Below are positions 1 to 59,323 of a DNA stretch of 64,000 nucleotides, piece after piece. Below the pieces are notes generated by a model that ran no database searches, was not told where the DNA came from, and saw nothing but the letters and a program-made list of their open reading frames with translations. Source of the stretch: Planctomycetia bacterium (GTDB lineage: Bacteria; Planctomycetota; Planctomycetia; Pirellulales; JACPPG01); assembly GCA_016191115.1 (NCBI GenBank), contig JACPPG010000042.1, positions 1 to 64,000 on the forward strand, read 5' to 3'. How positions within the stretch are numbered: position 1 is the first letter of the stretch; each line of letters opens with the position of its first letter. The position numbers and the translations under genes are program-made.

Positions 1-139
1 CAAAATGGCGAGGCGGGAAAATGGGACTGGCTCCGAGCATAAACAGCGCAAGCCCTTTCAGACCAACGTTGCGTCTCGGTGCCTGTCCCACTTTCCCGCC
101 GGTGCGCCGCCGGCAAGCTTGAATCTGTGAACGGCCCTG
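1..139 (-). repeat. 157-bp MITE-like element, copy 1 (cut by window start)
   Basis: Nearly identical to six other copies in this window (12219, 20172, 32556, 46394, 57641, 59167). The window begins at base 19 of the element. The right end is GGCCCTG at 133-139. The orientation matches copies 2 and 7. The target duplication cannot be tested because the left flank lies outside the window. It sits upstream of the PEP-CTERM gene at 372. Confidence 0.9.
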
Positions 140-371
140 CCAACGCGGATAACTTCCTTGAAGCGTGCCTGCGGCGTGGCTATAATTGCCGGCTCCTCTC
201 CGACCTCCGCTCATCGAATCGGCATACCGCTACTGAGCACGCGATTCGCCGCCCGACTGTCACGCGTGACGGTCTCTCTTCTTCCCGCTCAGTCTTTGTT
301 TGCTGCCCCTTCTGTCACGCCTACCGCGCGTGTGGCGCTGCTGGCTGATAACCTCTATTGGAGCATTCATC

Positions 372-1517
372 ATGAGTTTGGCCTCGCGTGTGCTGCGATG
401 CGGCGCCACGCCAAGCGTTCTGGTGCTTTTCACCGTTAGCCTGCTTGCCGGCACGAGTCAGGCGGGCGTGCAGGTGTCGAACCTCGTCACCGACGATCAG
501 ACGGTCAACGCGGCCACCATCGCCGACACCGATTTGAAGAATGCCTGGGGCGTGTCGTACAGCCCCACCGGGCCATTCTGGGTCTCCGACAATGCCACCG
601 GAAAGGCGACGATCTACAGCGTCGATCCGGGCACGAACGTGCCGGTCAAGGCGGGGCTGGTGGTTTCCATTCCCGGCGACGGGAGCATTACCGGACAGGC
701 ATTCAACGCCGCCGGCGCCAGTAACTTCAACGGCGACCTGTTCCTGTTCGTCAGCGAGGACGGGACCGTTTCCGGCTGGAGAAGCGCCCTGGGGTCGAAC
801 GCTGAGGTGCTGGCCCTCTCCAGCCCCGACAACGTTTACCAGGGTGCTGCTTTCGCCAGCGTGGGGGGCAACGGGTACCTGTATGCCGCGAACTTCAAGA
901 CCGGCAGAATCGACGTGCTCAAGGGCGCAACAGGCGCGCCCGACCTGCCAGGTTCCTTCACCGATCCTACCATCCCCTCCGGATACGCCCCGTTCAACAT
1001 CGAGAACCTCGGGGGAACGCTGTACGTCACGTACGCGCAACAAGACGCCGCCAAGCATGACGACGTTCCGGGGGCGGGGCACGGATTCGTCACGGCCTTC
1101 GACACCAGCGGCAACTTCCTGCAACGCATCGCGTCGGCCGGCGTGCTCAACTCCCCGTGGGGACTGGCCATCGCGCCGGCCGGCTTCGAGGGCCTGGACG
1201 GCGACTTGCTCGTAGGCAACTTCGGCGATGGCACGATCAACGCCTTCAACCTGACCACGCTGGCCAACGATGGGCCGCTCAAGGATACCCAGGGCGCGAC
1301 GATCGCCATCGACGGACTATGGGCACTCGCCGCCGGCAACGGCGGGCAGGGCGGAAACACGCATCTCGTCTATTTCACCGCCGGACCCGGCGATGAGACG
1401 CACGGGCTTTTTGGCAGCCTGGCCTCGGTGCCGGAGCCGTCGGCCTGGGCGTTGTTCACCGTAGGCGCTGTGGGCGTGCTCGTGCAACGCAAGCGACGCG
1501 CAAGCTGGCGCCGGTGA
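372..1517 (+). CDS. TIGR03118-like PEP-CTERM surface protein
   Basis: The predicted product is a 381-residue secreted protein. It has an N-terminal hydrophobic leader (VLVLFTVSLLAGTSQAG), a propeller-like body with repeated G-D-G and NFGDGTINAF segments, and a C-terminal sorting signal: VPEPSAW, a hydrophobic helix, then a basic tail ending in RKRRASWRR. The body resembles the TIGR03118 family of unknown function. The tail predicts processing by an exosortase encoded elsewhere and export to the cell envelope. An in-frame ATG exists at 300, but the ATG at 372 puts the signal peptide at the N-terminus and is preferred. The gene is convergent with the minus-strand gene ending at 1573. Family assignment is from memory of the motif pattern; the molecular function is unknown. 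Confidence 0.8.
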   Translation: MSLASRVLRCGATPSVLVLFTVSLLAGTSQAGVQVSNLVTDDQTVNAATIADTDLKNAWGVSYSPTGPFWVSDNATGKATIYSVDPGTNVPVKAGLVVSIPGDGSITGQAFNAAGASNFNGDLFLFVSEDGTVSGWRSALGSNAEVLALSSPDNVYQGAAFASVGGNGYLYAANFKTGRIDVLKGATGAPDLPGSFTDPTIPSGYAPFNIENLGGTLYVTYAQQDAAKHDDVPGAGHGFVTAFDTSGNFLQRIASAGVLNSPWGLAIAPAGFEGLDGDLLVGNFGDGTINAFNLTTLANDGPLKDTQGATIAIDGLWALAAGNGGQGGNTHLVYFTAGPGDETHGLFGSLASVPEPSAWALFTVGAVGVLVQRKRRASWRR

Positions 1518-1549
1518 ATTAGCGCTGCCTCGCTTGAAACGCGATGGCT

Positions 1550-1570
1550 GGTGCTCGCAGAGCACCCTAC
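1550..1570. repeat. Short palindrome GGTGCTCGCAGAGCACC + CTAC
   Basis: A 7-bp perfect stem around GCA, followed by CTAC. The same unit occurs at the right end of the 44207-44407 element and, reversed, at 49896. Here it lies between two convergent genes, where it could also help terminate transcription. Confidence 0.7.
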
Positions 1571-1572
1571 GG

Positions 1573-3618
1573 CTACGGCGACTTTTTCTTGCGAGCACCC
1601 CCAAGCGCCGCAAGCGCCTGGGCCATCCGCGGCATGGAACCCGGGTACTCGGTGAGCATCGCGGCGAAGGCGGCGATCGTTTTTTCGGCGCGGTCGAGGT
1701 ATTCCAGACGGTCGAGCGCCGTGGCCAGGTAGATCAGGTTCGCAGCCGCTACCGCGTTGCCCGACGGCAGCGCCGAGTCGACGGGGTCCTTGCTGCGGGC
1801 CAGAAGTTGCTCGTGGTCGTCGGACGTAAAGAAAAAACCTCCCTGGTCTTCGTCCCAAAATTGCTCGATCTGGATGCGCGTCAGCTCGTCGGCCGTCGTA
1901 AGCCAGCGGCGGTCGCTGGTCGCCTCGTGTAGGGCGATCAACCCATCGACCAGAAAAGCGTAGTCGTCCAGATAAGCGTTGAGGTGCGCCTGCCCGCCCG
2001 CATAGCTGCGCCGCAGCCGGCCTTCGGGGGTGCGCAGCTTCGCCAGCACGAAATCCGCCGACGTTGTCGCCGACGGGACATACTCTTTGTTGCCCAAGAG
2101 ACGCCCCGCGTCGGCCAGTCCGCGGATCATCAGGCCGTTCCAGGCGGTGAGGATTTTGGTGTCGGTCAGCGGCCGCTCGCGGCGCGCCCGCGCTCCCAGT
2201 AGTTTTTGGCGAGCCGGCGCGAGGCGATCGCGGAACGCCTCGGCCGAAAGGCCGGCGGCGGCCGCCAGTTCCTCGACGGGGCGCACAAGTTCAAGCGCGT
2301 AACGGCCCGCGAAGTTCGGCGCGCCGCCGGTGCCGTACGCTTGGGCGACCAGCTTCGCTTCTTCAGCCGTAAGCGCCTGTTCGATCTCTTCCCGCTTCCA
2401 GACGTAGAACTGCCCTTCCTCGCCGTCGGTCTCGGCGTCGAGCGCCGCGTAGAATGCACCCTCGGGCGACGTCAACTCGCGGGCAACGAACGCTACGATC
2501 TCCTCGGCGATGTGACGATACTCGGCCTGACCGGACTGCTTGAATGCGCGGGCGTAGACGCTCAAGAGCTGCCCGTTGTCGTAGAGCATCTTTTCGAAGT
2601 GGGGGATCCGCCAATAGCGGTCGGTGCTGTAGCGGTGGAAACCGCCCCCCAAGTGATCGCGGATTCCGCCACGGCCCATGCGATCGAGCGACAGCGCGAG
2701 CATCTTGCGGGCGTCGCGGTTGTCGGCGCGTCCAAGCACGTCGAGCAGGAACAGCAGGTTCGACGGTTCCGGGAACTTGGGCCGCCGCGCGTCGGCCTCG
2801 CTGAAACCGAAGCCGCCGTATTCGGGGTCGAATTCGTCGCCGATCGCCGAGAGCGTCTTGGCTGCCGCATCAGCCGGAAGCGGCGTGGGCACCGCCGCCC
2901 GCTTTTGCAGGCTGCGACTCACCGCCGCCGCGACCTGACCGGCGTAGTCGGCGACTTCCCGCGGGTTCTTTTGCCAGGAGTCGTTCACCAGGTTGACGAA
3001 CGTCACGAGGCCGGTCACCTGCTGCTTCGCGCCAGCGGGGACGTTCTTCGACGGCGGTAAGTCCACCTCCTTGTCGCGGGGCGGAAAGTACGTGCCGCCG
3101 ACGATCGGCCGAGCGTCGGGCGTGAGGAGCATCGTCAACGGCCAGCCGCCGCGCCGCCCCTGCACGGCCAACGCGGTCATATAGATCTGATCGATGTCGG
3201 GTCGCTCCTCGCGGTCGACCTTGATGCACACGAAGTGCTTGTTCAGCAGGGCCGCCACGTCGTCGTCCATGAACGACTCGCGCTCCATCACGTGGCACCA
3301 GTAACAGCTTGAGTAGCCGACCGACAAGAAAATCAGCTTGTTCTCGGCCTTGGCCTTCGCCAGTGCTTCGTCCCCCCACGGATACCAATTGACCGGATTG
3401 TGCGCGTGCAAGAGCAGGTAGGGGCTGGTCTCCTTGGCCAATCGATTCGCCGCCCGCGCGGGACCACTGGCCGGGCGCTGCACGGCTGGCTTCGCGGCGG
3501 GCGCCTGGGCCAGCGGCGCTTCAGCACGCCCGGCGGTGCTGCACACGGCCGCCACGACAAGCGCCCACGCCACCTGAAGGTCACGTCCCACGATGGACCA
3601 GGAAACAAGATCTCGCAT
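1573..3618 (-). CDS. YyaL/SPATA20-type thioredoxin-domain protein (DUF255)
   Basis: The 681-residue product starts with a hydrophobic export leader (about residues 12-33). Next comes the diagnostic block [18 protein letters not shown] and a thioredoxin-like domain with the CxxC motif SCYWCHVM. An (alpha/alpha)6-barrel-like region fills the rest, with [10 protein letters not shown] and [11 protein letters not shown] motifs. The family (YyaL in bacteria, SPATA20 in animals) is widespread; its substrate is not established. The ATG at 3618 is chosen over an upstream in-frame ATG at 3696 because GGAAGG lies about 9 bases before it and the leader then becomes N-terminal. The leader suggests a periplasmic or membrane location, whereas many homologues are cytoplasmic. 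Confidence 0.88.
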
Positions 3619-3727
3619 GAAATGCACCTTCCCGCGCCGATGTGAGGATCGCCGCGGACCAACCGCGCCATCGCCCAGAAAGAACAACCAGGGCACGCGG
3701 AAACGTCCAGAGCGCCGCGCAGCGCGC

Positions 3728-4837
3728 CTACATTCCTAATTCCTTCAGGAACTTCGACATCTCGTCTTCTTCGGCGCTCGCTTCCTCGTTGGCCTTCGCC
3801 GGCTTGCCCTTGTGGTTGCCGGGCGCGGATTCGCCGTTGGCGGCGGTCTTCGCGCGGGCGGGCGGCGCCGGTTTCGCCGGCGCGGCAGGGGCCTCGGGGT
3901 CCTCCACCTCGAAGGTCATCACCTCGTCGTCGGCTTCATCCGCGGGCGCGGCAGCGTCTTTTTCCTGCGGACTCTCGTCGGGCTCCTCCAGAAGGTCGAA
4001 CGCCAAGTCGTCCTCTCCCAGATCCAACTCCGGCAGCGCGTCGAGATCCGGCAATGCCTCGTCCGCGCCCGCCGCGGGGGGCGCCGACTGGACGGCCGGC
4101 TCGGTGGCCGCCGGCGTCGGAACCGTCTCAACCTGGTCGAGCTCGAGGTCCAGGTCATCCTCCGCCGCGAACTCGACCTCCATGGCGGGCTCCGCGTCGG
4201 CGGCGGCCGGTGACGCCACAGGCTCGATCGTGCCTGGCTCTGCCGTGTCAATACCGAGGGACAGATCGTCGTCCATGTCCATCAAGGGCGGCAGGTCCAG
4301 CACACCGCCCGAGGTCGGCGTCAACTCGTCGTCGCCCAGGTCAAGGGCGCCGGATGTAGGCGCGGCCGGCACTTCCATGTCTTGCGCATCCGCCGTCGCC
4401 GCGATTTCCTTTTCCAAAACGCCTGGACTCTCGACTTCATCAAGCGCGGTGACCTCTGGCACCGATGCGACGGCGGCCGTCGTGCCGGCGATGCCAGCGT
4501 CGCGATGTGGACTGCTATCCGGCACCTCGCCCTGGATGATCGCATCGGCCGGTTCGTATTCGGCGCGAAACGTCAAGGGGCCGATCGTCAACGTGTGGCC
4601 GGGCTTAAGGATGGCTTCCTTAATAGGCGCATCGTCGATAAGCGTGCCGTTCATCGAGCCAGCGTCCCGAACGACGAGCATTCCCTGTCGTTCGAATACC
4701 TCGCAATGATGACGGCTGACCGTTTTGTGGGCGATCATCAGCCCGGCGTCGCGGCTGCGTCCCACGGTCATAGGAAGTTTCAGACGGATTTCTCCTTTAT
4801 CCGCCTTGCCAGCAACTAAAACCAGCTTCGCTTTCAT
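3728..4837 (-). CDS. FHA-domain protein with long acidic tail
   Basis: The 369-residue protein has one N-terminal forkhead-associated domain (about residues 1-95). Its phosphothreonine-binding motifs are visible: GRS at the first loop, SRHHCEVF, and the NGTLID strand. The rest is low-complexity sequence rich in Asp, Glu, Pro and Ala, with no recognisable fold, ending in [14 protein letters not shown] domains read Ser/Thr-kinase phosphorylation, so a role in a phospho-signalling complex is likely; the kinase is not in this window. The ATG at 4837 is chosen because a GGGAG site lies about 12 bases upstream and the domain starts immediately. A longer frame begins at 4999 but has no domain content. 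Confidence 0.87.
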
Positions 4838-5147
4838 GCCGGCCACGTGCTCCCAAATTTTGCCAATGCGCGCAACAAGCGCAAACGCGGCGGCGAGCCG
4901 CGCGTCGCAAACCCTTACTATATACGGACAAACATGGCACCGCAACGATTTTTCAACCGGCTGCGCAGGAGGCCGATGCCGGGGCTTAGCGGGCCGCAAC
5001 CGGCGAGCATGTCAGCCCTGGACGCTGCTCTTCGGCAAACGGGCCAGCTTCCACCAATCGCGCGCGTGCGCGCGCTGCAATCGTTCGCCCCAAATCGTTG
5101 CGCCGCTGGCAGAAGTTCCGGCCACGACACGGCTTGTGCAACTGCCC

Positions 5148-5175
5148 TTGCATGACCTCCGGGCGAATCTATAAT
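5148..5175 (+). promoter_or_regulatory. Candidate promoter for tRNA-Gly
   Basis: A perfect TATAAT at 5170-5175 lies 16 bases after a weak TTGCAT at 5148-5153, about 67 bp upstream of the tRNA. The -10 is good and the -35 is poor. The surrounding 4838-5242 region contains nothing else recognised. Confidence 0.4.
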
Positions 5176-5242
5176 CCGTTGAGCCTTAGGGAATTATGAT
5201 TCCTGCGCGGGGTATTTTGCGCCGCGCAACGGGGTCGGCTGC

Positions 5243-5315
5243 GCGGGTGTAGCTCAGTTGGTAGAGCACGACGTTGCCAACGTCGTTGTCGTGGGTTCGA
5301 GCCCCATCACCCGCT
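5243..5315 (+). tRNA. tRNA-Gly(GCC)
   Basis: The cloverleaf can be drawn from the sequence. The 7-bp acceptor stem GCGGGTG pairs with CACCCGC. The D arm is GCTC-AGTTGGTA-GAGC, the anticodon stem CGACG/CGTCG, and the T arm GTGGG-TTCGAGC-CCCAT. The anticodon loop TTGCCAA gives GCC, which reads glycine codons. The discriminator is T, and CCA is not encoded. It lies 167 bp upstream of the trigger factor gene. Confidence 0.97.
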
Positions 5316-5482
5316 CTGATGGCGAAAGCGGGACAGTGGGGATCCCACGAACCCGCCACGCTCCCCCGTGGCGATAGTATGGCGAACGACCGAGACGGCC
5401 GGCCGTCAGCGGGGCCTGCCGTCGCCCCTGCGGCTCTTGGCGTTCATTTCCGCAAGACGGCACTAGAATCAATCGAGGCGCT

Positions 5483-6997: not shown

Positions 6998-7196
6998 GGA
7001 TATAATGCACTGCGAATGGGCGCCGACGATTTCGCCCCGCGCTTCGGCGGGCGGAAGTCACGGCGGTGCAAGTTCGCCTGCCACGTCGCAAGCTGCAAGG
7101 GAGTGCCCCGACGAGGATCCGCCCGGGGCGGATCGACGGACTGGCCCCCTTCTGGCCGGCCGGTAAAGGCGCATTGAGCGGGACAAAGGAACCTCG

Positions 7197-7832: not shown

Positions 7833-7877
7833 CGGATTCGAGCCACCACGAAGCGCAAGCAAGCGAGTTACGATCCG

Positions 7878-8480
7878 ATGCCACTCATTCCTTACGTGAT
7901 CGAGAAAAGCGGCCGCGAAGAGCGGGCGATGGACATCTATAGCCGGCTCCTGAAGGACCGCATTATCTTTCTCGGATCGAGCGTCAACGACGAAGTAGCC
8001 AATTCCATCGTGGCGCAGATGCTGTTTCTGCAGTCGGAGGACGGCAAGCAGGACATCCATCTATACTTGAACTCGCCGGGGGGGAGCGTCACCGCCGGGT
8101 TGGCCATCTACGACACCATGCAATTCGTCACCTGCGACGTGGCCACGTATTGCATTGGCCAGTGCGCCTCGATGGCGGCCGTGCTCCTGACCGCCGGCGC
8201 CCACGGCAAACGCAATGCGCTACCGAACTCGCGGATCATGATCCATCAGCCGCTGGCCGGCATGGAAGGCACGGCCGAGGAAATCATGATTCACGCCAAG
8301 GAATTCCAGAAAGTCAAAGCCAAGATCAACAGCATTCTCCTCAAGCACACCGGGCATCCTTTGGAAAAGATCGAGAAGGACACCGATCGAGACCGGTTCA
8401 TGTCGAGCGAAGAGGCACTCGAATACGGGCTGATCGACCGCGTGATCGAGCACATGGTCCCGGCACCGACCCCCGTATAG
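7878..8480 (+). CDS. clpP: ATP-dependent Clp protease proteolytic subunit (second paralogue)
   Basis: The 200-residue protein shows the canonical ClpP triad: Ser98 in [11 protein letters not shown], His123 in MIHQPLAG, and Asp172 in TDRDRFMS. The N-terminus begins [16 protein letters not shown], typical of ClpP, where the proline-rich start is trimmed on maturation. It follows the first clpP after 45 bp on the same strand and is probably co-transcribed with it. The 270 bp after this gene hold nothing recognised. Confidence 0.96.
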
Positions 8481-12095: not shown

Positions 12096-12218
12096 ATTCC
12101 GTAGTCTGACGAACTTGGTGGAAACGCATCGGGGCGCACCGACGCGAGGGCGGGCGAGACGTAAACGCGCGATTATACAGGTCCCGGCTTCGTCCGACAA
12201 CCGGCCGGCGCCGCCACG

Positions 12219-12375
12219 CAGGGCCATTCTGTTTTTCAAAATGGCGAGGCGGGAAAAGGGGACCGGCTCCGAGCATAAACAGCGCAAGTCCTTTCAGACC
12301 AACGTTGCGTCTCGGTGCCAGTCCCACTTTCCCGCCGGTGCGCCGCCGGCAAGCTTGAATCTGTGAACGGCCCGG
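12219..12375 (-). repeat. 157-bp MITE-like element, copy 2
   Basis: Starts CAGGGCC and ends GGCCCGG (one change from GGCCCTG). It is flanked by a perfect 10-bp direct repeat, CGCCGCCACG, at 12209-12218 and 12376-12385. Inside are the imperfect hairpin arms GGGACCGGCTCCGAG and CTCGGTGCCAGTCCC. It lies about 100 bp upstream of pyrF, in the gap behind gap. Confidence 0.92.
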
Positions 12376-12476
12376 CGCCGCCACGTTCTCCGGGTTCGTC
12401 GCGCTGGTAGAATCGACGCGCGGCAATCGGTGCGCTGCCCAGGCTTGTGCGCCGGCATCCGTAACGGAGGAATCGC

Positions 12477-19904: not shown

Positions 19905-20024
19905 TTTACCCCTGTCTCCACGGACCGTTCCAACGGGCCGCCGGCGCTTCCGAAACGCTCGGCCGCAAAGCGGCCTATATAATAGCGAATCGGCTTGGAG
20001 AATTCACCCTATGGCCTGGCGTTG

Positions 20025-20150
20025 GCAGGAGAACTGCAAAGTCATGGGAGAGGGGGTCAGGCACATTTTTCGGCCGAAGGTCCTTCGGAAGAATTGAGAA
20101 CCGCGTGCGCCGAAAAATGAGCCAGACCCCGGACTTTGCAGTTCTCCTGC
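20025..20150. mobile_element. 126-bp MITE with 19-bp perfect terminal inverted repeats
   Basis: The left end GCAGGAGAACTGCAAAGTC (20025-20043) is the exact reverse complement of the right end at 20132-20150. An 8-bp direct repeat, TGGCGTTG, flanks it at 20017-20024 and 20151-20158. The interior has no gene. It carries two opposed motifs, GGGGTCAGGCAC and GAGCCAGACCCC, which pair as an imperfect hairpin, and a smaller hairpin GGCCGAAGGTCC. No transposase lies nearby. Confidence 0.9.
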
Positions 20151-20171
20151 TGGCGTTGGGCTTGGCGTACG

Positions 20172-20327
20172 CAGGGCCGTTCACAGATTCAAGCTTGCCG
20201 GCGGCGCACCGGCGGGAAAGTGGGACAGGCACCGAGACGAAACGTTGGTCTGAAAGGGCTTGCGCTGTTATGCTCGGAGCCAGTCCCATTTTCCCGCCTC
20301 GCCATTTTGAATAACAGAATGGCCCTG
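20172..20327 (+). repeat. 157-bp MITE-like element, copy 3 (156 bp)
   Basis: CAGGGCC to GGCCCTG, one base shorter than the others (a T missing in the GCTGTTTATGCTC segment). Flanks TTGGCGTACG (20162-20171) and CTGGCGTACC (20328-20337) match at 8 of 10 positions, consistent with an older target duplication. It lies 21 bp from the unrelated 126-bp element and 55 bp from the 3' end of the MaoC-like gene. Confidence 0.9.
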
Positions 20328-20382
20328 CTGGCGTACCGCCCGGGGGTATTCCTCGCACCGCAAGTCAAACGACCGACTCAGC

Positions 20383-32540: not shown

Positions 32541-32555
32541 GCGGCGTCTTTTTTG

Positions 32556-32712
32556 CAGGGCCGTTCACAGATTCAAGCTTGCCGGCGGCGCACCGGCGGG
32601 AAAATGGGACAGGCACCGAGACGCAACGTTGGTCTGAAAGGACTTGCGCTGTTTATGCTCGGAGCCAGTCCCATTTTCCCGCCTCGCCATTTTGAAAAAC
32701 AGAATGGCCCTG
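32556..32712 (+). repeat. 157-bp MITE-like element, copy 4
   Basis: CAGGGCC to GGCCCTG, flanked by the perfect 10-bp duplication GTCTTTTTTG at 32546-32555 and 32713-32722. It is inserted 15 bp upstream of the first H4MPT gene and about 220 bp before the FabD-like gene, between the two divergent starts. Confidence 0.95.
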
Positions 32713-32935
32713 GTCTTTTTTGCCGGAGGCAGGCGACGGCGCGCGCCGCCAGCGTATACTGGATTTGTAACCTCGTCTCTTGCGGGCGGCAAGAATGCCC
32801 GCCTTCGGGGCGGCCGGCTCCACAGAGCCGCGAGCCGGAAATCACCAACCACGTCAATCCCGTCGCGATTCCAGCGTGACACTCCCCCTGTCGCCATCCC
32901 GTCGCGGTTTGCCGGCGGCAAATCGCCCTAACGCC

Positions 32936-46223: not shown

Positions 46224-46393
46224 GACGAATGCTCCTCGTTGGAAATAGGGCTGCCGCGGCTACGGGGGCAGGCGATCGACAAAACGCACGGCCGCGCCTG
46301 CGCGCGGGGGGTGCTGTATCGTACCGCATCGACGGTCGCCGGTCGAACGATACAGGCCCCACAATCGGCATCGGCCGCCCTGGCCCGAACCTG

Positions 46394-46550
46394 CAGGGCC
46401 GTTCACAGGTTCAAGCTTGCCGGCGGCGCACCGGCGGGAAAGTGGGACAGGCACCGAGACGAAACGTTGATCTGAAAGGGCTTGCGCTGTTTATGCTCGG
46501 AGCCAGTCCCATTTTCCCGCCTCGCCATTTTGAAAAACAGGATGGCCCTG
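46394..46550 (+). repeat. 157-bp MITE-like element, copy 5
   Basis: CAGGGCC to GGCCCTG, flanked by the perfect 10-bp duplication CCCGAACCTG at 46384-46393 and 46551-46560. It sits in the divergent gap between the thioredoxin-like gene (171 bp away) and the PEP-CTERM protease gene (33 bp away). Confidence 0.95.
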
Positions 46551-46582
46551 CCCGAACCTGCCCAATCGGTTGACCGCGGTGA

Positions 46583-49511: not shown

Positions 49512-49550
49512 CTCCCTCTCCCCTCGCGGGAGAGGGCCGGGGCGAGGGGG
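49512..49550. repeat. CCCTCTCCC palindrome, copy 2 (reversed)
   Basis: CTCCCTCTCCCCTCGCGGGAG and flanking GGGGCGAGGGGG, the reverse of the unit at 37225. It lies between the propeller gene start and the end of the parvulin gene. Confidence 0.65.
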
Positions 49551-49564
49551 CCGAAACTCTTCTT

Positions 49565-50202: not shown

Positions 50203-53200
50203 TCACTTGTCCGGCTTTTCCTCGGACCAGCCGATGCGCGCCGCGGGCAGGGCCTCGCTGAGGCGGGCGACGCCCTCCTTCGTTACCTCGGTGCGGGACA
50301 AGTCCAAGCGTTGAAGCTGCTTGAGGCGCGCGAGCAAGTCGATCCCCTTGTCGCTGACGCCCGTGCCGGTGAGATAAAGCGCCCGCAAATCGGGAAGCGC
50401 GGCCAGATGGGAAAGGCCTCTGCCCGTGATCCGCGCGTTCACCAGCATAAGAAAGGCGAGCTTCTTGAGGCCCGCCAGGTGCGATAGATCGTCGTCGTGC
50501 ACGTCACGGGTGTTGAGCCGCAGGCTGGTTAGCTTCGTCAGTCCGGCCAGGTGTACGAGCCCCGCGCCGGTCACCTTGGTGTCCTCGAGAAACACGCTTT
50601 CCAGTTGATCCAGCCCCTCGATGTGCGCCAGTCCCGCGTCGGTCACTTCGGTGTTGTTGATATACAGGCGTTTGAGGTTCTTAAAGCGCGCGGCAGCCTT
50701 GAGCCCATCGTCATCGAAGGGGCCCATCAGTTGCAGCTCAGTGAGCGACTCGGCCGGCAGCGTCGCAAGTCCTGCGCCGGTCAGCTTGGGGCTCACAACG
50801 TTCAGCGACTCCAGCTTCGCCGCGCCGGCCAGGTGCGCGAGTCCCGCGTCGGAGATGGCTGCGTCGAGGCCGAGCTTCTTCAAACGCGACAGCCGTCCAA
50901 GATGCGCGAGGCCATCGTCGGTGATCGCGTCGCCGCTGACGAAGACCTCCTCAAGATTCGCGAGACCGGCAAGAATCTTCAGACCCTCGTCCGAGATGTC
51001 GCAATTGTTGATGACCCGGAAAGCCCGCAGCGTCTTGAGTCCCGCGAGGCGCGCGAGCCACGCGTCGGTCACCTTGTGATCGGCCGAACCGCTGATCGCG
51101 CCGGTATCGGGATGGAGCCCGAAAGCGGAGTTGATGTCGAGTGAATCGAGGTCGTCGAGCCCGGCCAGGAGCTTGAGCCCGTCGGCTCCCCCCATCCACG
51201 CGGCCTGCAGCGACACGCCGACGGTCCGCCGGCCATCGGGCCAGTCGTCTGTCTTGATCTCCGCGCCGAGCTTCTTCAATTCCTCCACCGCGCGGACGTG
51301 CGCCGGCGAGTCGGCGGTTCGCGACTTCCCTTCGGCATGCGTCGCCCTGGATTGCTTCTGCGCATCAGGCGCTTTGCCGGCCGGTGCAAATACCGCGGCC
51401 GACTCACCCGTCGAAGGTTTCGCCTCGGCCGGTTTCTCTCGGGCCGCTTGCTTCCGCAGCTTGTAGCGCACGGTCACCGTCTTGCCGGCCGGCAGGTCGA
51501 TCGGGCCGGCAGGCTGCTCGACGATCGCGTAACCTGGCGGCAGATTCAGTTCGTATTCCTGCCTGCCGGGTGCCACCAAACGGCGCAATCGGCCACCCGC
51601 GTCTATTGAGTCGAAGACCACCGGGTGGAACCCTGCGCCGTTTCCGGCGTTGGGAGATTTCATCGCGATCCCGGCGCCGGCGACGCCGCGGCCTGTGTCG
51701 GCGTCGACAATCTCGAACAGAAGCGCGCACGGCTTCGGCACGCGGATCGTTGCCGACTGGTCCTGCGGGCTATCGGCGACAGCCAGCGGCACGGCAGGAA
51801 CGGTGTACCCGATGGAAAAGGTGAACCCCTGATCCGGCCCGACGCCCAGCGAGTAGGTACCCGGCGGGAGCTGGAGCGTGGCGACGCCGTGCTCGTCGGC
51901 GGTTGCCGCGGCCACCACGGCCGGTTGCTCGTTGTTTTGGGTCTGCAGGTGAAAGCCCGCCGCGTCCTCGTCGCCACCTTCGAACAGTACTTGCGCGCGG
52001 ACAGTTCGCGCCCGGGCGAGCGTCAGATTGATTTCGCCGGTCACAAGCGGCTTGTCGCTCCACGGATTGCGATCGCGCCGCTCGCCGGTGCCGATATAGC
52101 AATAGCGCATGCCGATCGCCTCTTGCTGAATGCTGAGCGAAGCGGCCGTGTCCGCTGCCAGACCGCCGAGCTCGAAGCGCCCGTCGGCGTCACTCGTGGC
52201 GTCGGGCTGCGGCGGCGGCCCGCCAGCCCACCACGCGTGCCCGGGGCGGCTCCACTCCCCCTCTGGCGCGTCGGGCGAGCCGGGGCCGATGCGCTGGTCC
52301 GAACAGTGCGTGACGGCGATCTGGGCGCCGGCAATCGGCAGTCCCGCATCGTCCACCAGCCGCCCGCGGACCCTGACTTCCGGCCGGAACTTGAGATCGA
52401 TAGCGATCGCGTCATCGCGGTAGACCGCGTAGCGATCGTGCGAGGAGGACTGCTTTTGCGCCTCCGCCCGGGTCATTTGGTAAAAGACATGCGGCGCCCG
52501 CCACGTCCGGGCGTATCCGTGTGCGGTTCCAGTGAGCACAAACCCGCGATACCCCTCGCCCACGAGCGGCAGCGCCAAGTCGCGGAACTCGTAACGGCCC
52601 TCAGCGTCAGTGGTCGCCGCAGCCGAGAACGACTTGCCGGGCGGGATGGTGGCAAGTTCAAGCGTCGCCCCGGCGACTGGCTTGCGATTCTGGTCGACGG
52701 CGCGACCGCGGATGGTGACCGAGTGCATAGCGGTCGCGGCGTCGGGCGCGTCCAAGATTACGCTGAAGGTCGACCACGTTTCAGATTCGCCGGCATCGTT
52801 CTGTTGCGGCTCCGTTCGCGGCGATGCTTCGGCTGGCGCGAACAGTGCTTCTGCGTCACGCGGTGAGTTTGCCTCGGCGGGCTTCTGCTTGGCCGCTTGC
52901 TTTCGCAGCTTATAGCGCACCGTCACCGTCTTGCCGGCCGGCAGGTCGATCGGGCCATTGGGCTGCTCGACGACTTCGTAGCCCGGCGGCGGGTTGACCT
53001 CGTAGCCGCGCTTGCCCGGCTTCACCAGGCGCGTGAGCTTGCCGCTCGCGTCGGCAGGTTCGATGATCGAAAGGGAATCCTCAGCGTCGGCGTCGTCACC
53101 GGGCGTCTCGGAGAGACCCGCGCCGGAGATACCGCGGTCTGTGTCGGCATCGACAACCTCAGCGACCAGCTTGCACGGCTGCGGCACGCGGACCGTGGCC

Positions 53201-56200
53201 GATTGTTGTTGCGGCGTGTCGGCGACTACGAGCGGCGCCTTACCCAATTCCATGTTGACCCAGCCCATCGCCGGGTCCGGGCGCATGTGCAATTCATACT
53301 TTCCTGGCGGCAGGGAGAGCATCGCCATGCCGGCGCCGTCGGTCATGGCGGATGCGACGAGCGACGGCTGTTCGCCATTTTGCACCCACACGTGCAAGCC
53401 CACCGCAGGCTCGTCGCTTCCTTCATAGCGGACGCCCACGCGCACGCTCCGCACGCGGGCGAGCGTCAGATTCACCTCACCGGTCAAGAGCGGCTTCCCT
53501 TTGCGCGTCCACGGATTCTTGGCGTTCGGCCGATCGGTGGTGCCGACGACGCACCCCCGCATGCCAAAGTCGGGGTGCTGGATGGTGACAAACGCGGCCG
53601 TCTCGCGCGCCAGGTTGCGCAGCACAAAGCGGCCGTCGGCGTCGCTTGTGACTTGGGGCTCGGTGGGCGTCTCGCGGCGGCCCCAGAAGGCGTTCTCCTT
53701 GTCCGGCCACCGGTCCCGCACGCTCAGGTCCATGCACTGCGAGACCATGATCTTCGCGCCCGCGATTGGCCGCCCCGCTTCGTCCACTAGGTGGCCGCGC
53801 ACCAGCGCCTCGGGCCGGAACTTGAGGTCAATCGTGATCGCGTCATCGCGGTAGACTGATCGGCGATCGAGCTTGCGTTGCTGCTTCTGTGCGTCCGCGC
53901 GAGTCGTATCGTGGAAGATGCGCAGTCCGCTCCAAACTCGACCGTGGCTTGCGGCAGTCCCACTGACTTCGAAAGTGCCGAGGTTGTCGGAGGACAAAGG
54001 AAGCGGCACCTCGCGGAACTCGTATTGGCCGTCGGCGGCAGATACGGCCGACGTCGTAGAAGACTTCGGGAAGCCGATCGCAACAAGCTCGATCTTTGCC
54101 CCGGCGACCGGCTTGCCGTTTTCGTCGATAGCGCGGCCGCGGACGGTGACCGGATGCGTGGCGACGGGGCCGTCGGGGCGGACGACCGCGGAGGCGACTA
54201 GCTTCGTGCCCTTTGGCTTAGCGATTTTTTCTTGGGCGCCGGCTTTCTCCTTCTGCGGCTCTTCGTCCGGCTTCTCGGCAGGCTTTTGCGGCGGTTCTTT
54301 CGCCGCGCCGTCGGTTGGGCTTGGCGCGTCATCCTTGTCGGCGAACACGGGAACGGCCGAGTACCGGGCGGTGAATCCTAAATCTTTGCCGTGTTGAATT
54401 TTTAAGCCCGGGATGGCCGCTTCGAGTTTGGCGGCCGCGTCGTTGGTGACCGGCGTGCCTTTGACCGACAGGGTGCGCAAGTTTTTCAGGTCGCCTAAGC
54501 TCGCGAGCCCCTTGTCGGTCACGCTGGCCTGCATCATTTCCAGGTCGCGCAGGTTGGCGAGCCGGCCGATCTCGGCGAGCGCCTGGTCCGAGAGCCGCGC
54601 GGAATCCAGATAAAGCTGCTCGACGCTCTGCAGCTTGGCGAGGCCTTTGGCTCCTTCGTCGCTGATCGTGGCGCCCGTGAGAGTGAGCTCCTTGAGCTTC
54701 TTGGCGCCGGCCAATGCGGCCAGACCATCTCCGGTGACGTTGGCGCTTGGCAGACTGAGCGTTTCGAGCGCCGCAAGGGGAGCAAGGTGTTGCAGGCCAG
54801 CGTCGGTAACACCACGGCCAGGCAGGCGAAGGCGCTTGAGCCGCGTCAAGTGTGCCAGGCTCTTGAGCCCGTCGTCGGTGATCGTTCCTTCGCCTGCGAG
54901 GGCGAGATGCTGCAGCTTGGGGAACCGGCCAGCAAGCTGAAGCGTTCGGTCGCTAACCCGCGTCGGATAAAGCGTGAGGCCGCGCAGGTCGCGTTCGGGC
55001 GGGATCGCCGCCAGGCCGTCGTCGCTGGTGGCGATTCCGTTGATCGCCAGCATCTGCAGTTGCGGGAGCCGGGCCGCGATGTGCAATAGTGTATCGCCCG
55101 GCGCGGTGTCCTTCGGTATATCCCTGCCCGACCAATTGCGGCTGAGCGACAGCGATTGCAGGCCGGACATCGAAGCGATCGCCTCGGCGTCCTCCGCCGC
55201 AAAGTCGGCCGGATACAGGGTGAAGGCTTTGAGCTGTGAAAGCTGTGCGATGGCTTTCAAGCCGTCCGGCGCGAGCGTGACGTTCAAGAGCGAGACTTGC
55301 CGCAGCGACTTGATCGGCGCTAGCGCGGCGAAGCCAGGCCCGCGCACATCGGGACAATCCTGAATGAGCAGCGTTTCGAGTTGCGGGAGCCCGGCGAGCG
55401 CACTGATCCCGTCGTCGGTGATCGGCAGGCTGGCGAGGGAGAGAAACTTCAGCTTCGAGAGGGCGGCAAATTGCTTGAGGCCATCGTCGGTGACACCGAC
55501 CCATGCCTTTTCGCCCGGCTTGACCGACGGCCCCTTCAGTTGCAGCTTCTCGATGCCAGCCGCCAGTTCGGCCATCCGTTTGCAACTCGCGGGCGACAGG
55601 TCGCACTGTTCGAGATTGAGGACGCGGCAATCGGGCAACTTCGCGAGCTTGGCCACTCGCTTGTCGGAGGCGTACAAAAACGACAGGAACTCGACCGGGT
55701 TCTTAAGACGCAATTGCGCGACATCGGCAGCGTCGACGCGCGTGAGATCGATGAGAAGGCTGCGCAACTCATCGACGTCGTTGAGCAGCGCAAAATCGGC
55801 GGCGCTGCCCTTCCAACCCCTCTCGTTCCCCTCGCGGTCCCTGCTGGCGAGGAATGCGACGGAATAGCCGCTACCGGGCATCCTTTCTGCCCGCGCGCCC
55901 AATTCCCGCAGCTTGTCCAAGGCGCGGTCAGAGGCAGATGGCGATGCGTCGGCGGGAGGCGCCGCGTTATCGCGGGTCGGGGCCTCCGGTGTGGTTAGCC
56001 GTCCCAGCGCGGCTGGCGGCCCTGTCGTCGCGAAGGCAACTTCGACCGACGGCGCTGCCGCCACTTGCAGCCCGGCGCCCGGCAAGAGCACGGCAACGGC
56101 CACAACCGCGATCGCGTAGTACGACAGTGGCGTGCGGCGGTGGAAGCGGTCGGCGCGGCGGACCAGGTGTTCCAGCCGCCGGGCCGTCACGCCCAGCATG

Positions 56201-57186
56201 CCGACGCCGGGCATGGCGAAGGCCGGCTGCGGACCGCGTTGCGCCGCCAGCACGTCCAAGAGCACGCGGGCGTAGTCGGTGGCGCGGCAGGCAAGCCCCG
56301 TGACCACTTCCTCGTCGCAAGCCCGCTCCCGCTCGCGCCGCGCCTCGCGATTGGCCCACCAGATCAGCGGATGGAACCACCAGGCGAGCTGTGCGACAAG
56401 CTGCACGAGCGACGCCGCCGGATCGCCACGGCGGACGTGTACCAGCTCGTGGGCGAGAATGGCGCTTATGGCGAGCGACGGTTCTTGCGCGCCACTGGAA
56501 TCTTGCCGAGCATCGGGCGCCAGCCGCTCGACCAGGGCGGCCGGCAACAGGATCGTCGGCCGCCACACGCCGAAGACGGCCGGTACCGCGGCCTCACGAC
56601 AGGCCAAAACGCGGACGCGTCGCCGCACGCCCAGCCGCACCGCCAGCTCGCGCGTCTGCCGCTCGACAAAGTCGGGCACGGCGACCGCCGACGCATGCCA
56701 CCGCCGCCGACAGGCGAGCCACTTGGCGAGCACGTACGCTGCCAGCGCCATCGCGCCAACGGCCCAAGCGGCGAAGAGCGTCCGCACCGGGGAAAACTGC
56801 CGCGGCGGATCGGCCGGGGCCAGAGCAGCAGGCGCCGCCGCCGCCGCAAGTCGCTCGACCGGCTTTGCCGTCACGCGAGGACCCGGCGCGAATAAGTCAG
56901 GCGGCAAGGGCACCGGCTGTGGCGCTGCTGCCGCCTTGGATTCGGCCTGTGGCTCGGCGGCATGGGCGACTTCTGCCCGTTGAGCCCAACTAAAAATCCC
57001 CGTGGGCGACGCCACGACGGGCGGCGTCACGGCCTTTAACACGACCAGCATCCACAACAGATACGCCAGGTGTGGGCGCCTTCGGCAGCCGAAGCGGGCG
57101 ATCAGGCCCAGGACGGCGGCCACCAGCGTGACCTGCCAGAGCTGCGCCCAAGCGAGCGCCACCACGTCAACGTTTGCGATTGTCAT
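50203..57186 (-). CDS. Giant M56 (BlaR1-type) peptidase fused to LRR and duplicated carboxypeptidase-regulatory-like domains
   Basis: A 2327-residue protein. Residues 1-400 form an M56/BlaR1-like peptidase with several membrane helices and the zinc motif HELVH (246-250), followed by WWFHPLIWWANREARRERER and CDEEVV. A first leucine-rich-repeat array spans about 500-930. Two homologous ~430-residue units (about 1005-1430 and 1488-1915) follow. Each starts VTIRGRA/VTVRGRA, contains DDAIxIDLKFRPE and GEINLTLAR, and ends IDLPAGKTVTVRYKLRKQA. These look like carboxypeptidase-regulatory (CRD) beta-sandwich repeats. A second LRR array fills about 1960-2327. The ATG at 57186 overlaps the blaI stop region by 20 bp. 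It is probably a membrane receptor/protease that cleaves or relieves BlaI; the signal is unknown. Confidence 0.9.
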   Translation of the reverse strand: MTIANVDVVALAWAQLWQVTLVAAVLGLIARFGCRRRPHLAYLLWMLVVLKAVTPPVVASPTGIFSWAQRAEVAHAAEPQAESKAAAAPQPVPLPPDLFAPGPRVTAKPVERLAAAAAPAALAPADPPRQFSPVRTLFAAWAVGAMALAAYVLAKWLACRRRWHASAVAVPDFVERQTRELAVRLGVRRRVRVLACREAAVPAVFGVWRPTILLPAALVERLAPDARQDSSGAQEPSLAISAILAHELVHVRRGDPAASLVQLVAQLAWWFHPLIWWANREARRERERACDEEVVTGLACRATDYARVLLDVLAAQRGPQPAFAMPGVGMLGVTARRLEHLVRRADRFHRRTPLSYYAIAVVAVAVLLPGAGLQVAAAPSVEVAFATTGPPAALGRLTTPEAPTRDNAAPPADASPSASDRALDKLRELGARAERMPGSGYSVAFLASRDREGNERGWKGSAADFALLNDVDELRSLLIDLTRVDAADVAQLRLKNPVEFLSFLYASDKRVAKLAKLPDCRVLNLEQCDLSPASCKRMAELAAGIEKLQLKGPSVKPGEKAWVGVTDDGLKQFAALSKLKFLSLASLPITDDGISALAGLPQLETLLIQDCPDVRGPGFAALAPIKSLRQVSLLNVTLAPDGLKAIAQLSQLKAFTLYPADFAAEDAEAIASMSGLQSLSLSRNWSGRDIPKDTAPGDTLLHIAARLPQLQMLAINGIATSDDGLAAIPPERDLRGLTLYPTRVSDRTLQLAGRFPKLQHLALAGEGTITDDGLKSLAHLTRLKRLRLPGRGVTDAGLQHLAPLAALETLSLPSANVTGDGLAALAGAKKLKELTLTGATISDEGAKGLAKLQSVEQLYLDSARLSDQALAEIGRLANLRDLEMMQASVTDKGLASLGDLKNLRTLSVKGTPVTNDAAAKLEAAIPGLKIQHGKDLGFTARYSAVPVFADKDDAPSPTDGAAKEPPQKPAEKPDEEPQKEKAGAQEKIAKPKGTKLVASAVVRPDGPVATHPVTVRGRAIDENGKPVAGAKIELVAIGFPKSSTTSAVSAADGQYEFREVPLPLSSDNLGTFEVSGTAASHGRVWSGLRIFHDTTRADAQKQQRKLDRRSVYRDDAITIDLKFRPEALVRGHLVDEAGRPIAGAKIMVSQCMDLSVRDRWPDKENAFWGRRETPTEPQVTSDADGRFVLRNLARETAAFVTIQHPDFGMRGCVVGTTDRPNAKNPWTRKGKPLLTGEVNLTLARVRSVRVGVRYEGSDEPAVGLHVWVQNGEQPSLVASAMTDGAGMAMLSLPPGKYELHMRPDPAMGWVNMELGKAPLVVADTPQQQSATVRVPQPCKLVAEVVDADTDRGISGAGLSETPGDDADAEDSLSIIEPADASGKLTRLVKPGKRGYEVNPPPGYEVVEQPNGPIDLPAGKTVTVRYKLRKQAAKQKPAEANSPRDAEALFAPAEASPRTEPQQNDAGESETWSTFSVILDAPDAATAMHSVTIRGRAVDQNRKPVAGATLELATIPPGKSFSAAATTDAEGRYEFRDLALPLVGEGYRGFVLTGTAHGYARTWRAPHVFYQMTRAEAQKQSSSHDRYAVYRDDAIAIDLKFRPEVRVRGRLVDDAGLPIAGAQIAVTHCSDQRIGPGSPDAPEGEWSRPGHAWWAGGPPPQPDATSDADGRFELGGLAADTAASLSIQQEAIGMRYCYIGTGERRDRNPWSDKPLVTGEINLTLARARTVRAQVLFEGGDEDAAGFHLQTQNNEQPAVVAAATADEHGVATLQLPPGTYSLGVGPDQGFTFSIGYTVPAVPLAVADSPQDQSATIRVPKPCALLFEIVDADTGRGVAGAGIAMKSPNAGNGAGFHPVVFDSIDAGGRLRRLVAPGRQEYELNLPPGYAIVEQPAGPIDLPAGKTVTVRYKLRKQAAREKPAEAKPSTGESAAVFAPAGKAPDAQKQSRATHAEGKSRTADSPAHVRAVEELKKLGAEIKTDDWPDGRRTVGVSLQAAWMGGADGLKLLAGLDDLDSLDINSAFGLHPDTGAISGSADHKVTDAWLARLAGLKTLRAFRVINNCDISDEGLKILAGLANLEEVFVSGDAITDDGLAHLGRLSRLKKLGLDAAISDAGLAHLAGAAKLESLNVVSPKLTGAGLATLPAESLTELQLMGPFDDDGLKAAARFKNLKRLYINNTEVTDAGLAHIEGLDQLESVFLEDTKVTGAGLVHLAGLTKLTSLRLNTRDVHDDDLSHLAGLKKLAFLMLVNARITGRGLSHLAALPDLRALYLTGTGVSDKGIDLLARLKQLQRLDLSRTEVTKEGVARLSEALPAARIGWSEEKPDK

Positions 57187-57562
57187 GTTGCTCTGACTCC
57201 AGTTGGGCAAGCAGGGCGCGGAGGCGGGCGATCTCGTCGTCCGACAGGCCGCGATCGGCGATCAGGTACTCGACCAGCGGCAGGGCCTCGCCGTCGAAGA
57301 GCCGCGCAACGAAGTCCTCGACCGTCTCGCGGACCACCTGCGTAGGCCGGACGCGGGGGCGATAGTGGATGCTCTTGCCCTGGCGGCGGGCGTGCAGGTA
57401 GCCCTTCGCCTCCAGCCGGCGGAGGTAGGTCTGCACGGTCTTGTAGTCGAGCGGCCGGTCGGCCGGGAGCGCCTCGTGAACCTGCCGCACCGTGGCCCCG
57501 CCCAGGCTCCACACGATGCGGGCGACTTCCAGTTCGGCCTTCGATAGTTGAGCGCGTGCCAT
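57167..57562 (-). CDS. blaI: BlaI/MecI/CopY-type transcriptional repressor
   Basis: The 131-residue winged-helix repressor starts LSKAELEVARIVWSLGGATV and has the recognition region DRPLDYKTVQTYLRRLEAKGYL and wing HARRQGKSIHYRPR. The C-terminal helices (about 80-125) mediate dimerisation. The family represses its own operon and is inactivated by an M56 partner, here encoded by the overlapping downstream gene. GGGGAGGA lies just before the ATG. The operon promoter with a BlaI-type operator sits about 265 bp upstream, separated by MITE copy 6. Confidence 0.94.
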   Translation of the reverse strand: MARAQLSKAELEVARIVWSLGGATVRQVHEALPADRPLDYKTVQTYLRRLEAKGYLHARRQGKSIHYRPRVRPTQVVRETVEDFVARLFDGEALPLVEYLIADRGLSDDEIARLRALLAQLESEQHDNRKR

Positions 57563-57640
57563 GGGGAGGAAGCAATTAGCAATGGGCGATTATGGGCGAT
57601 TAGCAATGAGCCGGAACTGGCGCCTGCCGCGGCGTCCCTC

Positions 57641-57797
57641 CAGGGCCGTTCACAGATTCAAGCTTGCCGGCGGCGCACCGGCGGGAAAGTGGGACAGGCA
57701 CCGAGACGCAACGTTGGTCAGAAAGGACTTGCGCTGTTTATGCTCGGAGCCAGTCCCATTTTCCCGCCTCGCCATTTTGAAAAACAGGATGGCCCTG
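57641..57797 (+). repeat. 157-bp MITE-like element, copy 6, in the blaI leader
   Basis: CAGGGCC to GGCCCTG. Flanks GGCGTCCCTC (57631-57640) and GGCGCCCCTC (57798-57807) match at 9 of 10 positions. It lies between the blaI start codon (79 bp away) and the BlaI-type promoter, so it should be transcribed as part of the blaI-M56 leader. Confidence 0.95.
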
Positions 57798-57815
57798 GGC
57801 GCCCCTCTCGCTCTC

Positions 57816-57858
57816 TTACATTTGAACGCCATTATGTCGTACATTTGTACGATGTCAA
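57816..57858 (-). promoter_or_regulatory. BlaI-type promoter with operator exactly between -35 and -10
   Basis: On the minus strand TTGACA (57858-57853) and CATAAT (57836-57831) are separated by 16 bases. Those 16 bases are the perfect palindrome TCGTACATTTGTACGA (plus-strand 57837-57852), whose core TACATTTGTA fits the BlaI/MecI consensus TACANNTGTA. A second site, TACATTTGAA (57817-57826), matches 9 of 10 core bases, is centred 23 bp away and covers the predicted transcription start. Repressor binding would block the polymerase. Confidence 0.82.
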
Positions 57859-58075
57859 GCGCGGGGGGCGGAGAAATCGTCCGCGGATTTTCGCCGCGTG
57901 CCCGAGAGAAGGACGAGGAACCACCAAGCCACGAAGGGCGAAATGCCTAAATCCGAACGTCCAAAGAAGCACGAAATCCGAAATTCGAAAGGGAGGTTCT
58001 TAGAGCGACGGCCGTTTCGTCATTCGCGCATTCGGATTTCTTTTGACATTCAGACTTCGACATTCGTCATTCGCG

Positions 58076-58234
58076 TTACGGCCGCGGCTGGCCGGGGTTT
58101 TCTTCCGTGCCGCCGGGAGGCGGAGACTGGACGTTTTCCGACGGCGGCGGCGGCGTGTAGTCCTTGTCCGACGGACCGCACCCGCAGCACCAGGCCACCG
58201 ACGCGACCACCAGGGCAACCATGCGTAGCTTCAT
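58076..58234 (-). CDS. 52-residue predicted lipoprotein
   Basis: A small frame with an N-terminal signal MKLRMVALVVASVAWCCGCG, in which Cys19 after Gly fits a lipobox. It continues with GPSDKDYTPPPPSEN and ends NPGQPRP. The charge-hydrophobic-Cys layout and Pro-rich tail are typical of small envelope lipoproteins. It is short and has no recognised family. Its 3' end abuts a GACATTCGTCATTCG repeat. Function unknown. Confidence 0.55.
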   Translation of the reverse strand: MKLRMVALVVASVAWCCGCGPSDKDYTPPPPSENVQSPPPGGTEENPGQPRP

Positions 58235-58299
58235 CGCTTGTGCTTCCTTTTCACGATTGTTGCGCAGCCGCGCAACTTCAACGCTACACCAGACGGTTT

Positions 58300-58429
58300 A
58301 TCCGCAGATTACGCAGATTTCGCAGACAACAAACCAAGGAAGCGAAGGCGGTCAATCGTCATTAGTGCCGCCCATTTCTCATTGTCAACGTCTTTCCCTA
58401 AATCTGTGAAATCTGCGAAATCTGCGGAT
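58300..58429. repeat. ATCCGCAG...CTGCGGAT inverted-repeat unit
   Basis: The left arm ATCCGCAGATTACGCAGATT and the right arm GAAATCTGCGAAATCTGCGG face each other across about 130 bp. It is the same family as 11960-12095 and 41326-41444. It lies between the small lipoprotein and sodC. Confidence 0.6.
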
Positions 58430-58487
58430 GACTTCTTCTCCCTCGGCACGAGTCGCGAGTCGGCCGCGGCGTAGCCGTTTCCGCCGT

Positions 58488-59051
58488 TCACTGCTTCGGC
58501 GGACCGGCCAGGCCGATCACGCCCACCGCCACGCGACCGCCCGCGTCGCCGACCGGCTGCGTGAACTTGTCGGGGTTCGCGTGCACCACGAGCGACCGCC
58601 CCAGAATCGAGTGCGCCCCGCCCAGGTCCAGCATCGAGTCCTTGATGTCGATCGTGGCCACGCCGTCGTCGCCCGCCTTGATGTTGCCCAGGTCGCCCAC
58701 GTGGCGTTCCTTGTCCTCGGGCTTGCCGTGAGGCTTGTTCTCGGGGTTGAAGTGGCCGCCGGCCGACATGCCGTCGGTCAGGCCCGTAATGTCGCCGAAT
58801 TGGTGAACGTGAAAGCCGTGCATCCCGGGCGTGAGGCCGGAGATCTTGCCGCTGACGTTGACGGTGTCCCCCTTCTTGTCGAAGAATACGACGCCGGAGA
58901 CCTTGTTCTGTCCGGTCGGCAGCAGCACGGCGACGGCGCGGCTGGCTCCCATGTCGGCATGGGCGGCCGCCGCGGCCTTATTCTGCGCCCGCGCGTCGCC
59001 CGCCACAAACAATAGCATCGAACACGCGACTAGCACGACTTTCGCATACAT
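58488..59051 (-). CDS. sodC: Cu/Zn superoxide dismutase without the conserved disulfide
   Basis: A 187-residue exported enzyme. Residues 1-22 are a signal peptide. Metal ligands are all present: His81 and His83 (GFHVHQFGD), bridging His100 (GGHFNP), His108, His117 and Asp120 for zinc, and His157 (VVHANPD). The positions that normally hold the two disulfide cysteines are occupied by other residues: LTDGMSAGGHF instead of a Cys before TSAG, and RVAVGVIG instead of RVACGVIG. The only Cys is in the signal peptide. GGAGG precedes the ATG at 59051. It likely detoxifies superoxide in the periplasm. Confidence 0.92.
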   Translation of the reverse strand: MYAKVVLVACSMLLFVAGDARAQNKAAAAAHADMGASRAVAVLLPTGQNKVSGVVFFDKKGDTVNVSGKISGLTPGMHGFHVHQFGDITGLTDGMSAGGHFNPENKPHGKPEDKERHVGDLGNIKAGDDGVATIDIKDSMLDLGGAHSILGRSLVVHANPDKFTQPVGDAGGRVAVGVIGLAGPPKQ

Positions 59052-59166
59052 CGGGTGGTCCTCCGAAGAAGGTGTGCAGGTTGTTCCGACCAAGGACGCA
59101 GGGCTTGTGCGCCTGACAGAAATTAGGGCACAAAGCCGTATCACGCAAGCCTCGACAGGGCGGTTT

Positions 59167-59323
59167 CGGGGCCATCCTGTTTTTCAAAATGGCGAGGCGG
59201 GAAAATGGGACTGGCTCCGAGCATAAACAGCGCAAGTCCTTTCAGACCAACGTTGCGTCTCGGTGCCTGTCCCGCTTTCCCGCCGGTGCGCCGCCGGCAA
59301 GCTTGAATCTGTGAACGGCCCGA
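59167..59323 (-). repeat. 157-bp MITE-like element, copy 7, forming the 3' end of hyuAB
   Basis: The ends read CGGGGCC and GGCCCGA. The flanks AGGGCGGTTT (59157-59166) and GCGCGCCCGG (59324-59333) do not match, unlike the five other testable copies. The element supplies the last ~46 codons and stop of the adjacent gene. Confidence 0.92.

Follow-up and report, generated by a model that had tools for sequence, protein, structure and literature searches.

The closest described relatives of the element reported here are ISAs1-family insertion sequences, bacterial MITEs and the repeats of Y1 transposases. Insertion sequences of the ISAs1 family have ends that read CAGGG and duplicate 8-10 bp of their target, and the REP repeats linked to RAYT transposases are not known to duplicate theirs. 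Among short non-autonomous elements, MITEPye1 of Paracoccus yeei has been connected with IS1182 and occurs as 1-3 chromosomal copies (PMC11578231), and the repeats flanking Y1 transposase genes contain a GGGGWSAS motif (PMC3733652). We analyzed a window of 64,000 nucleotides (the whole stretch of DNA under study) from a planctomycete of the order Pirellulales, in which a 157-bp element, here MITE-1, occurs repeatedly together with a second one, MITE-2. Like MITEPye1 (PMC11578231), MITE-1 is short, has inverted-repeat ends, flanking repeats and a stem-loop, lacks a transposase, and has its movement attributed to an insertion sequence acting in trans; unlike MITEPye1, it has ISAs1-type ends and copies in the hundreds, and ends related to its own hold unrelated interiors in related genomes. 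With the REP/TIR repeats of Y1 (RAYT/TIRYT) transposases (PMC3733652) the two elements share the form of an intergenic hairpin repeat and, in the MITE-2 interior, the GGGGWSAS motif; unlike those repeats, the MITE hairpin lies within ends of the DDE type, which duplicate 10 bp of the target. In the part of the literature that was searched, outside which most subscription journals lie, we found ISAs1-type MITEs described for no planctomycete.

Copies of MITE-1 and their duplications

The seven MITE-1 copies that an earlier note had placed in the window were all recovered where it had located them, with the nearly constant length it described (Table 1). One is truncated by the contig edge, since the window begins at base 1 of contig C26. 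The claim that five copies have matching 10-bp flanks also held, the matches being 10, 10, 10, 9 and 8 of 10, with 1 of 10 around the sixth uncut copy. The MITE-2 copy, which the earlier note lacks, lies 22 bp from a MITE-1 copy; the target motif, the placement in noncoding DNA and the hairpin cargo treated below are likewise additions to that note. The window further contains a tRNA-Gly gene (5243-5316) and a 160-bp direct repeat, 79% alike (51419-51578 and 52868-53027), within a 2335-codon open frame (50203-57210).

Table 1. Elements, duplications and hairpin module in the window
Feature	Positions	Strand	Details
MITE-1 copy	1..139	+	element positions 19-157 only, cut by contig edge
Left 10-bp duplication CGCCGCCACG	12209..12218		flank match 10/10, copy at 12219
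MITE-1 copy	12219..12375	+	157 bp; final bases CGG in place of CTG
Inner hairpin module of copy at 12219	12248..12336	+	GGCGGGAAAAGGGGACCGGCTCCGAG ... CTCGGTGCCAGTCCCACTTTCCCGCC
Right 10-bp duplication CGCCGCCACG	12376..12385		flank match 10/10, copy at 12219
MITE-2 copy	20026..20149	+	124 bp; ends CAGGAGAACTGCAAAGTC on both sides
MITE-2 duplication CTGGCGTTGG	20016-20025 and 20150-20159		10/10
MITE-1 copy	20172..20327	-	156 bp; flanks 20162-20171 / 20328-20337 match 8/10
MITE-1 copy	32556..32712	-	157 bp
Duplication GTCTTTTTTG (+ strand)	32546-32555 and 32713-32722		10/10, copy at 32556
MITE-1 copy	46394..46550	-	157 bp
Duplication CCCGAACCTG (+ strand)	46384-46393 and 46551-46560		10/10, copy at 46394
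MITE-1 copy	57641..57797	-	157 bp; flanks match 9/10
MITE-1 copy	59167..59323	+	both ends altered; flanks 1/10, without duplication

The assembly of the same genome (G000) comprises 6,026,176 bases in 93 contigs and is 94% complete. With up to 3 mismatches the right-hand anchor GTGCGCCGCCGGCAAGCTTGAA matches it 391 times (195 + 196; reversed control 0), in keeping with the hundreds of copies that had been extrapolated from the window, and the left end matches 352 times (208 + 144; control 0). The window, matched loci and 1.6 Mb of own-genome stretches supplied 175 distinct copies for examination, each taken with 80 bp of flanking sequence at either end; the sample mixes best-scoring matched loci with unselected stretches. 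Both ends are present in 112 of these, only the left in 34, only the right in 26 and neither in 3. By median, the two-ended copies share about 98% identity with the consensus; they measure 157 bp in 92 cases, 156 bp in 10, 158 bp in 7 and another length in 3. Their 10-bp flanks match at 10/10 in 54, at 9/10 in 20, at 8/10 in 5 and at fewer than 8 positions in the remaining 33; a match of at least 9/10 is therefore found in 74 of 112 copies, versus 0.07% of shuffled partner pairs, and the peak in flank matching is absent at the lengths adjoining 10 bp. The whole-genome search with flank scoring that had been proposed as a check thus finds duplications far above chance, and upholds insertion of a non-autonomous element with a 10-bp duplication. 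Copy number and duplication, like the target preference and noncoding placement described below, are read directly from counts. In 53 of the 60 one-ended copies the alignment stops 3-22 bases before the missing end, and some of these copies are hybrids of MITE-1 and MITE-2; deletion between CAA/TTG repeats of end and target was considered as their origin and set aside, the break points being variable. The two ends of MITE-1 match each other at 17 of 26 bases. Being short, devoid of a transposase gene, bounded by inverted-repeat ends, flanked by a target duplication and present in many copies, MITE-1 is a MITE-type non-autonomous transposon.

Four congeners gave no BLAST match to MITE-1 (in two of them, scoring covered 21 of 24 and 21 of 22 candidates), and its left end, at up to 3 mismatches, is absent from the same four; a looser left-end pattern finds one site in one of them (G004). 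No orthologous copies were thus seen by BLAST in these congeners, as expected if the copies are not conserved at orthologous positions, and because MITE-1 is absent from them the burst looks specific to the species or its close kin, a reading drawn from genome comparison. Across the order, MITE-1-like left ends with up to 3 mismatches occur in 20 of 396 genomes, the own genome counted, in a survey whose reversed control pattern matches once in one genome, so that single sites may be chance.

Target sequence and genomic placement

The 74 MITE-1 copies with duplications reveal a preferred target of the form CAA-N8-[10 bp]-N8-TTG. CAA stands 8 bp to the left of the duplication in 24 of them (the other 54 offsets have a mean of 1.0 and a maximum of 4), TTG stands 8 bp to its right in 16 (mean 0.9 and maximum 3 over the other 53 offsets), and one or both occupy the exact offset in 39. 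MITE-2 follows the same trend in small numbers, with CAA in 3 and TTG in 2 of 21 copies versus 0.35 and 0.25 elsewhere. Elements also share sites: in 12 of the 79 copies with a duplication of at least 8/10 the end of another MITE lies exactly 10 or 11 bp away, the duplication being common to the two elements, and around one locus (L049) AATCCGGCTA is present three times.

Placement was assessed with a purpose-made codon-usage score, genes being inferred from codon usage and not from annotation. By this measure 73 of the 74 insertion sites score as noncoding: at the loosest threshold 1 of 74 reconstructed empty sites is coding-like, versus 74% of 2000 random points, and at four stricter thresholds none is, versus 31-69% of random points. 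The neighboring genes of the 71 copies with enough flank are divergent in 27 cases, convergent in 4, co-directional in 35 and undecided in 5, and those of 800 random noncoding points are divergent in 156, convergent in 101 and co-directional in 463 (divergent versus convergent, p = 0.003). Either selection after insertion or choice of target may account for this placement.

MITE-2, the candidate transposase and its rivals

The sampled own-genome DNA holds 36 full copies of MITE-2, 21 of them with duplications of at least 9/10, and the genome as a whole has 113 occurrences of its exact end. In one relative (G007) the identical 18-bp ends bound a full element with an ISAs1-family transposase gene (1,276 bp, 148.5 bits), whose protein contains the Pfam domains DDE_Tnp_1 and DDE_Tnp_1_assoc; the contig ends at this element, so that its duplication is unreadable. 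The same 18-bp ends in G181 bound a 1,243-bp element with a broken transposase frame and an 11-bp duplication, and an element in G067 has one changed base in the end, an incomplete frame and a perfect 10-bp duplication, GCAAATCCCG. From these comparisons the ISAs1 link is firmer for MITE-2 than for MITE-1. Two further features of MITE-2 were seen. At one locus (L185) a copy beginning at 4122 stands upstream of a tRNA-His gene (4044-4118), 3 bp from the 5' end of the latter, and the 10-bp duplication of this copy includes the first 7 bases of that gene. At four others (L111, L156, L177 and L144) hybrids join a MITE-1 part to a MITE-2 part, the first of them with a 9/10 duplication around the hybrid.

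For MITE-1 the earlier note had left the transposase family open; comparative evidence points to ISAs1, and an ISAs1-family DDE transposase is the best candidate enzyme: 1) Both MITE-1 ends carry CAGGGCC, which agrees with the CAGGG of ISAs1 ends, and the 10-bp duplication falls inside the 8-10 bp range of that family. 2) Elements of the same order matching the ISAs1 model NF033564, which encode the DDE transposase that MITE-1 lacks, in part share its CAGGGC ends and 10-bp duplications; among 28 ISAs1 loci scanned, four combine such ends with perfect 10-bp duplications (L079, L086, L087 and L096), and of the eight showing both CAGGGC ends four lack matching 10-bp flanks (L078, L083, L090 and L097). 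NF033564 has matches in 41 of 117 genomes of relatives. 3) In a scan of 20 fetched loci, 4 of which gave an end pair, three ISAs1 elements of about 1,248 bp from G360 (L328-L330) overlie NF033564 matches and have CAGGGCAACTCAGTTTTTGAATCTGG ends and duplications of 9/10, 10/10 and 10/10; their genes are broken, and two of them (L329 and L330) have common flanks and could represent a single insertion that was duplicated. At its left end MITE-1 shares 20 of 26 bases with the CAGGGCAACTCAGTTTTTGAATCTGG end and 17 with the other G360 end; for its right end the corresponding counts are 16 and 15. With five other ISAs1 ends the agreement is 9-13 of 26 bases for the left end and 8-13 for the right. 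4) In G212 an end about 100 bp from an ISAs1 C-terminus at a contig edge (66.7 bits, cut-off 70) shares 21 of 26 bases with the left end of MITE-1 and 14 with its right end.

In the own genome NF033564 gives two matches, both partial and both under the family cut-off. One is an N-terminus lying at the contig edge of C55, the other what remains of a C-terminus, on C87. Both lie on contigs other than that of the window, in line, for this family, with the statement that the window holds no transposase. The transposon end at the C55 piece, CAGGGCGATTGCGCC, shares only 11 of 26 bases with the left end of MITE-1, in contrast to the subfamily in G360. The proposed search for a full-length transposon with matching ends gave ends of 20-21/26 in relatives, beside broken genes or at a contig edge, and no intact partner with MITE-1-like ends in the own assembly, which is fragmented into 93 contigs; no autonomous element with ends nearer than 21/26 was found, the one at 21/26 being cut by the contig edge.

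Three other explanations have to be weighed. Another DDE family with duplications of about 10 bp, for example IS4 or IS1, is an unlikely agent for MITE-1. IS4-like elements produce duplications of 9-12 bp and the own assembly lacks a partner. Moreover, when 18 of the 19 other relatives with MITE-1-like ends were searched for ISAs1 genes, nine had them and nine gave no match, the latter including G015 with 67 MITE-1-like end sites and G138 with 22; because of these nine the ISAs1 reading is slightly weaker and this alternative slightly stronger. Against it stand the ISAs1 elements of the order, with similar ends and the same duplication length, and, with little weight, the lack of any PF01609 (DDE_Tnp_1) match in the own genome in a search that matched 9 of 14 controls and missed both ISAs1 pieces. 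More doubtful still is mobilization, by a Y1 (RAYT) transposase, of a palindrome of the REP or IS200 type. For it, MITE-1 encloses a REP-like hairpin, three Y1 matches lie in the own genome, one of the Y1 genes there (L366) is flanked by GGGACAGG inverted repeats, and the MITE-2 interior contains GGGGTCAGG, which fits the GGGGWSAS of repeats flanking Y1 genes (PMC3733652). Against such an origin speak the conserved CAGGGCC ends together with the 10 bp duplicated at the target, and the interior motifs, allowing one mismatch, are missing from all 13 Y1 loci that were scanned (30 were fetched; 5 genomes); the duplications disfavor it for the whole element, and for the interior alone it could still hold. 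Another own-genome Y1 transposase gene (L350, on contig C42) was seen to lie between long inverted REP-like repeats containing GTAG. Finally, a conserved RNA gene or regulatory hairpin is scarcely credible: strong predicted folds (-75.8 and -85.8 kcal/mol for the two consensus strands) and the noncoding placement would suit it, but the flank duplications, the want of a BLAST match in the four congeners and an Rfam search that gave, above threshold in the window, one tRNA only all favor insertion over a conserved gene or RNA, as the earlier note had held.

We therefore consider it very probable that MITE-1 is a non-autonomous miniature transposon whose ends are recognized in trans by an ISAs1-family DDE transposase making a 10-bp staggered cut. 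Such an enzyme would bind ends of the form CAGGGCC[AG]TTC...TTCAA, insert the element by that cut with a preference for CAA-N8-[10 bp]-N8-TTG targets, and sometimes re-use the 10-bp duplication of an adjoining element. We infer that it acted in trans and that its own-genome source was lost or was not assembled.

Interior hairpins and their proposed capture

The MITE-1 consensus is predicted to fold into one long imperfect stem, and its ends enclose a hairpin module that also exists without them. The inner part GGGACTGGCTCCGAG...CTCGGTGCCTGTCCC was found by eye without MITE-1 ends at four loci in G024 and one in G020, where the BLAST matches span interior positions only. In the own sample 4 of 122 MITE-1-type hairpins lack both anchors; two are clear and two (L140 and L160) doubtful, since weak similarity persists close to their ends, as decayed copies might show. 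Conversely, 80 loci of other genomes yielded 19 short elements with related ends, with flanks of 10/10 in 14, 9/10 in 1 and 8/10 in 4; the search required at least 8/10, so that these duplications are no independent test, and one of the 19 (L227, 257 bp) looks spurious. A comparison of 8 genomes in 7 genera, each represented by a single element and with the G213, G360 and G209 entries (8/10 flanks) and extra elements of genomes already included left aside, distinguishes five interior types: 1) that of the own genome; 2) G015, G138 and G203; 3) G181 and G201; 4) G110 and 5) G346. Only 4 of the 28 pairs score above all 200 shuffles, the remaining 24 being unremarkable. The types do not follow genera neatly: G110 and G138, of the same genus, differ in the elements compared; a second G138 element (L391) resembles the G110 element by eye.

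One hairpin-core type matched at least 120 stretches, mostly titled Planctomycetota among the 80 fetched. Of its 86 places in these, 71 lie outside any CAGG-ended element, 14 are too near an edge, and one (L486) lies inside a CAGG-ended element with a 10-bp duplication, in which kind of element 0 of 400 random points fall. As the cores lie mostly outside CAGG-ended elements, such hairpins are not part of these transposons alone. We infer capture of hairpins by the ends rather than of ends by the hairpins. The chances are about even that, in Pirellulales, ISAs1-type ends form a reusable shell that repeatedly picks up locally abundant hairpin repeats and spreads them between genes, that hairpin families usually credited to Y1 transposases are thus also distributed by a DDE transposase, and that different end types stack at one 10-bp target.

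MITE-1 is a MITE of high copy number whose target rule has been measured and whose ends point to ISAs1. It also suggests a testable way for hairpin repeats to enter the intergenic spaces of planctomycetes, namely by riding inside the ends of DDE transposons. If this shell-and-cargo reading is true, the spread of REP-like repeats need not rely on their own transposases alone.
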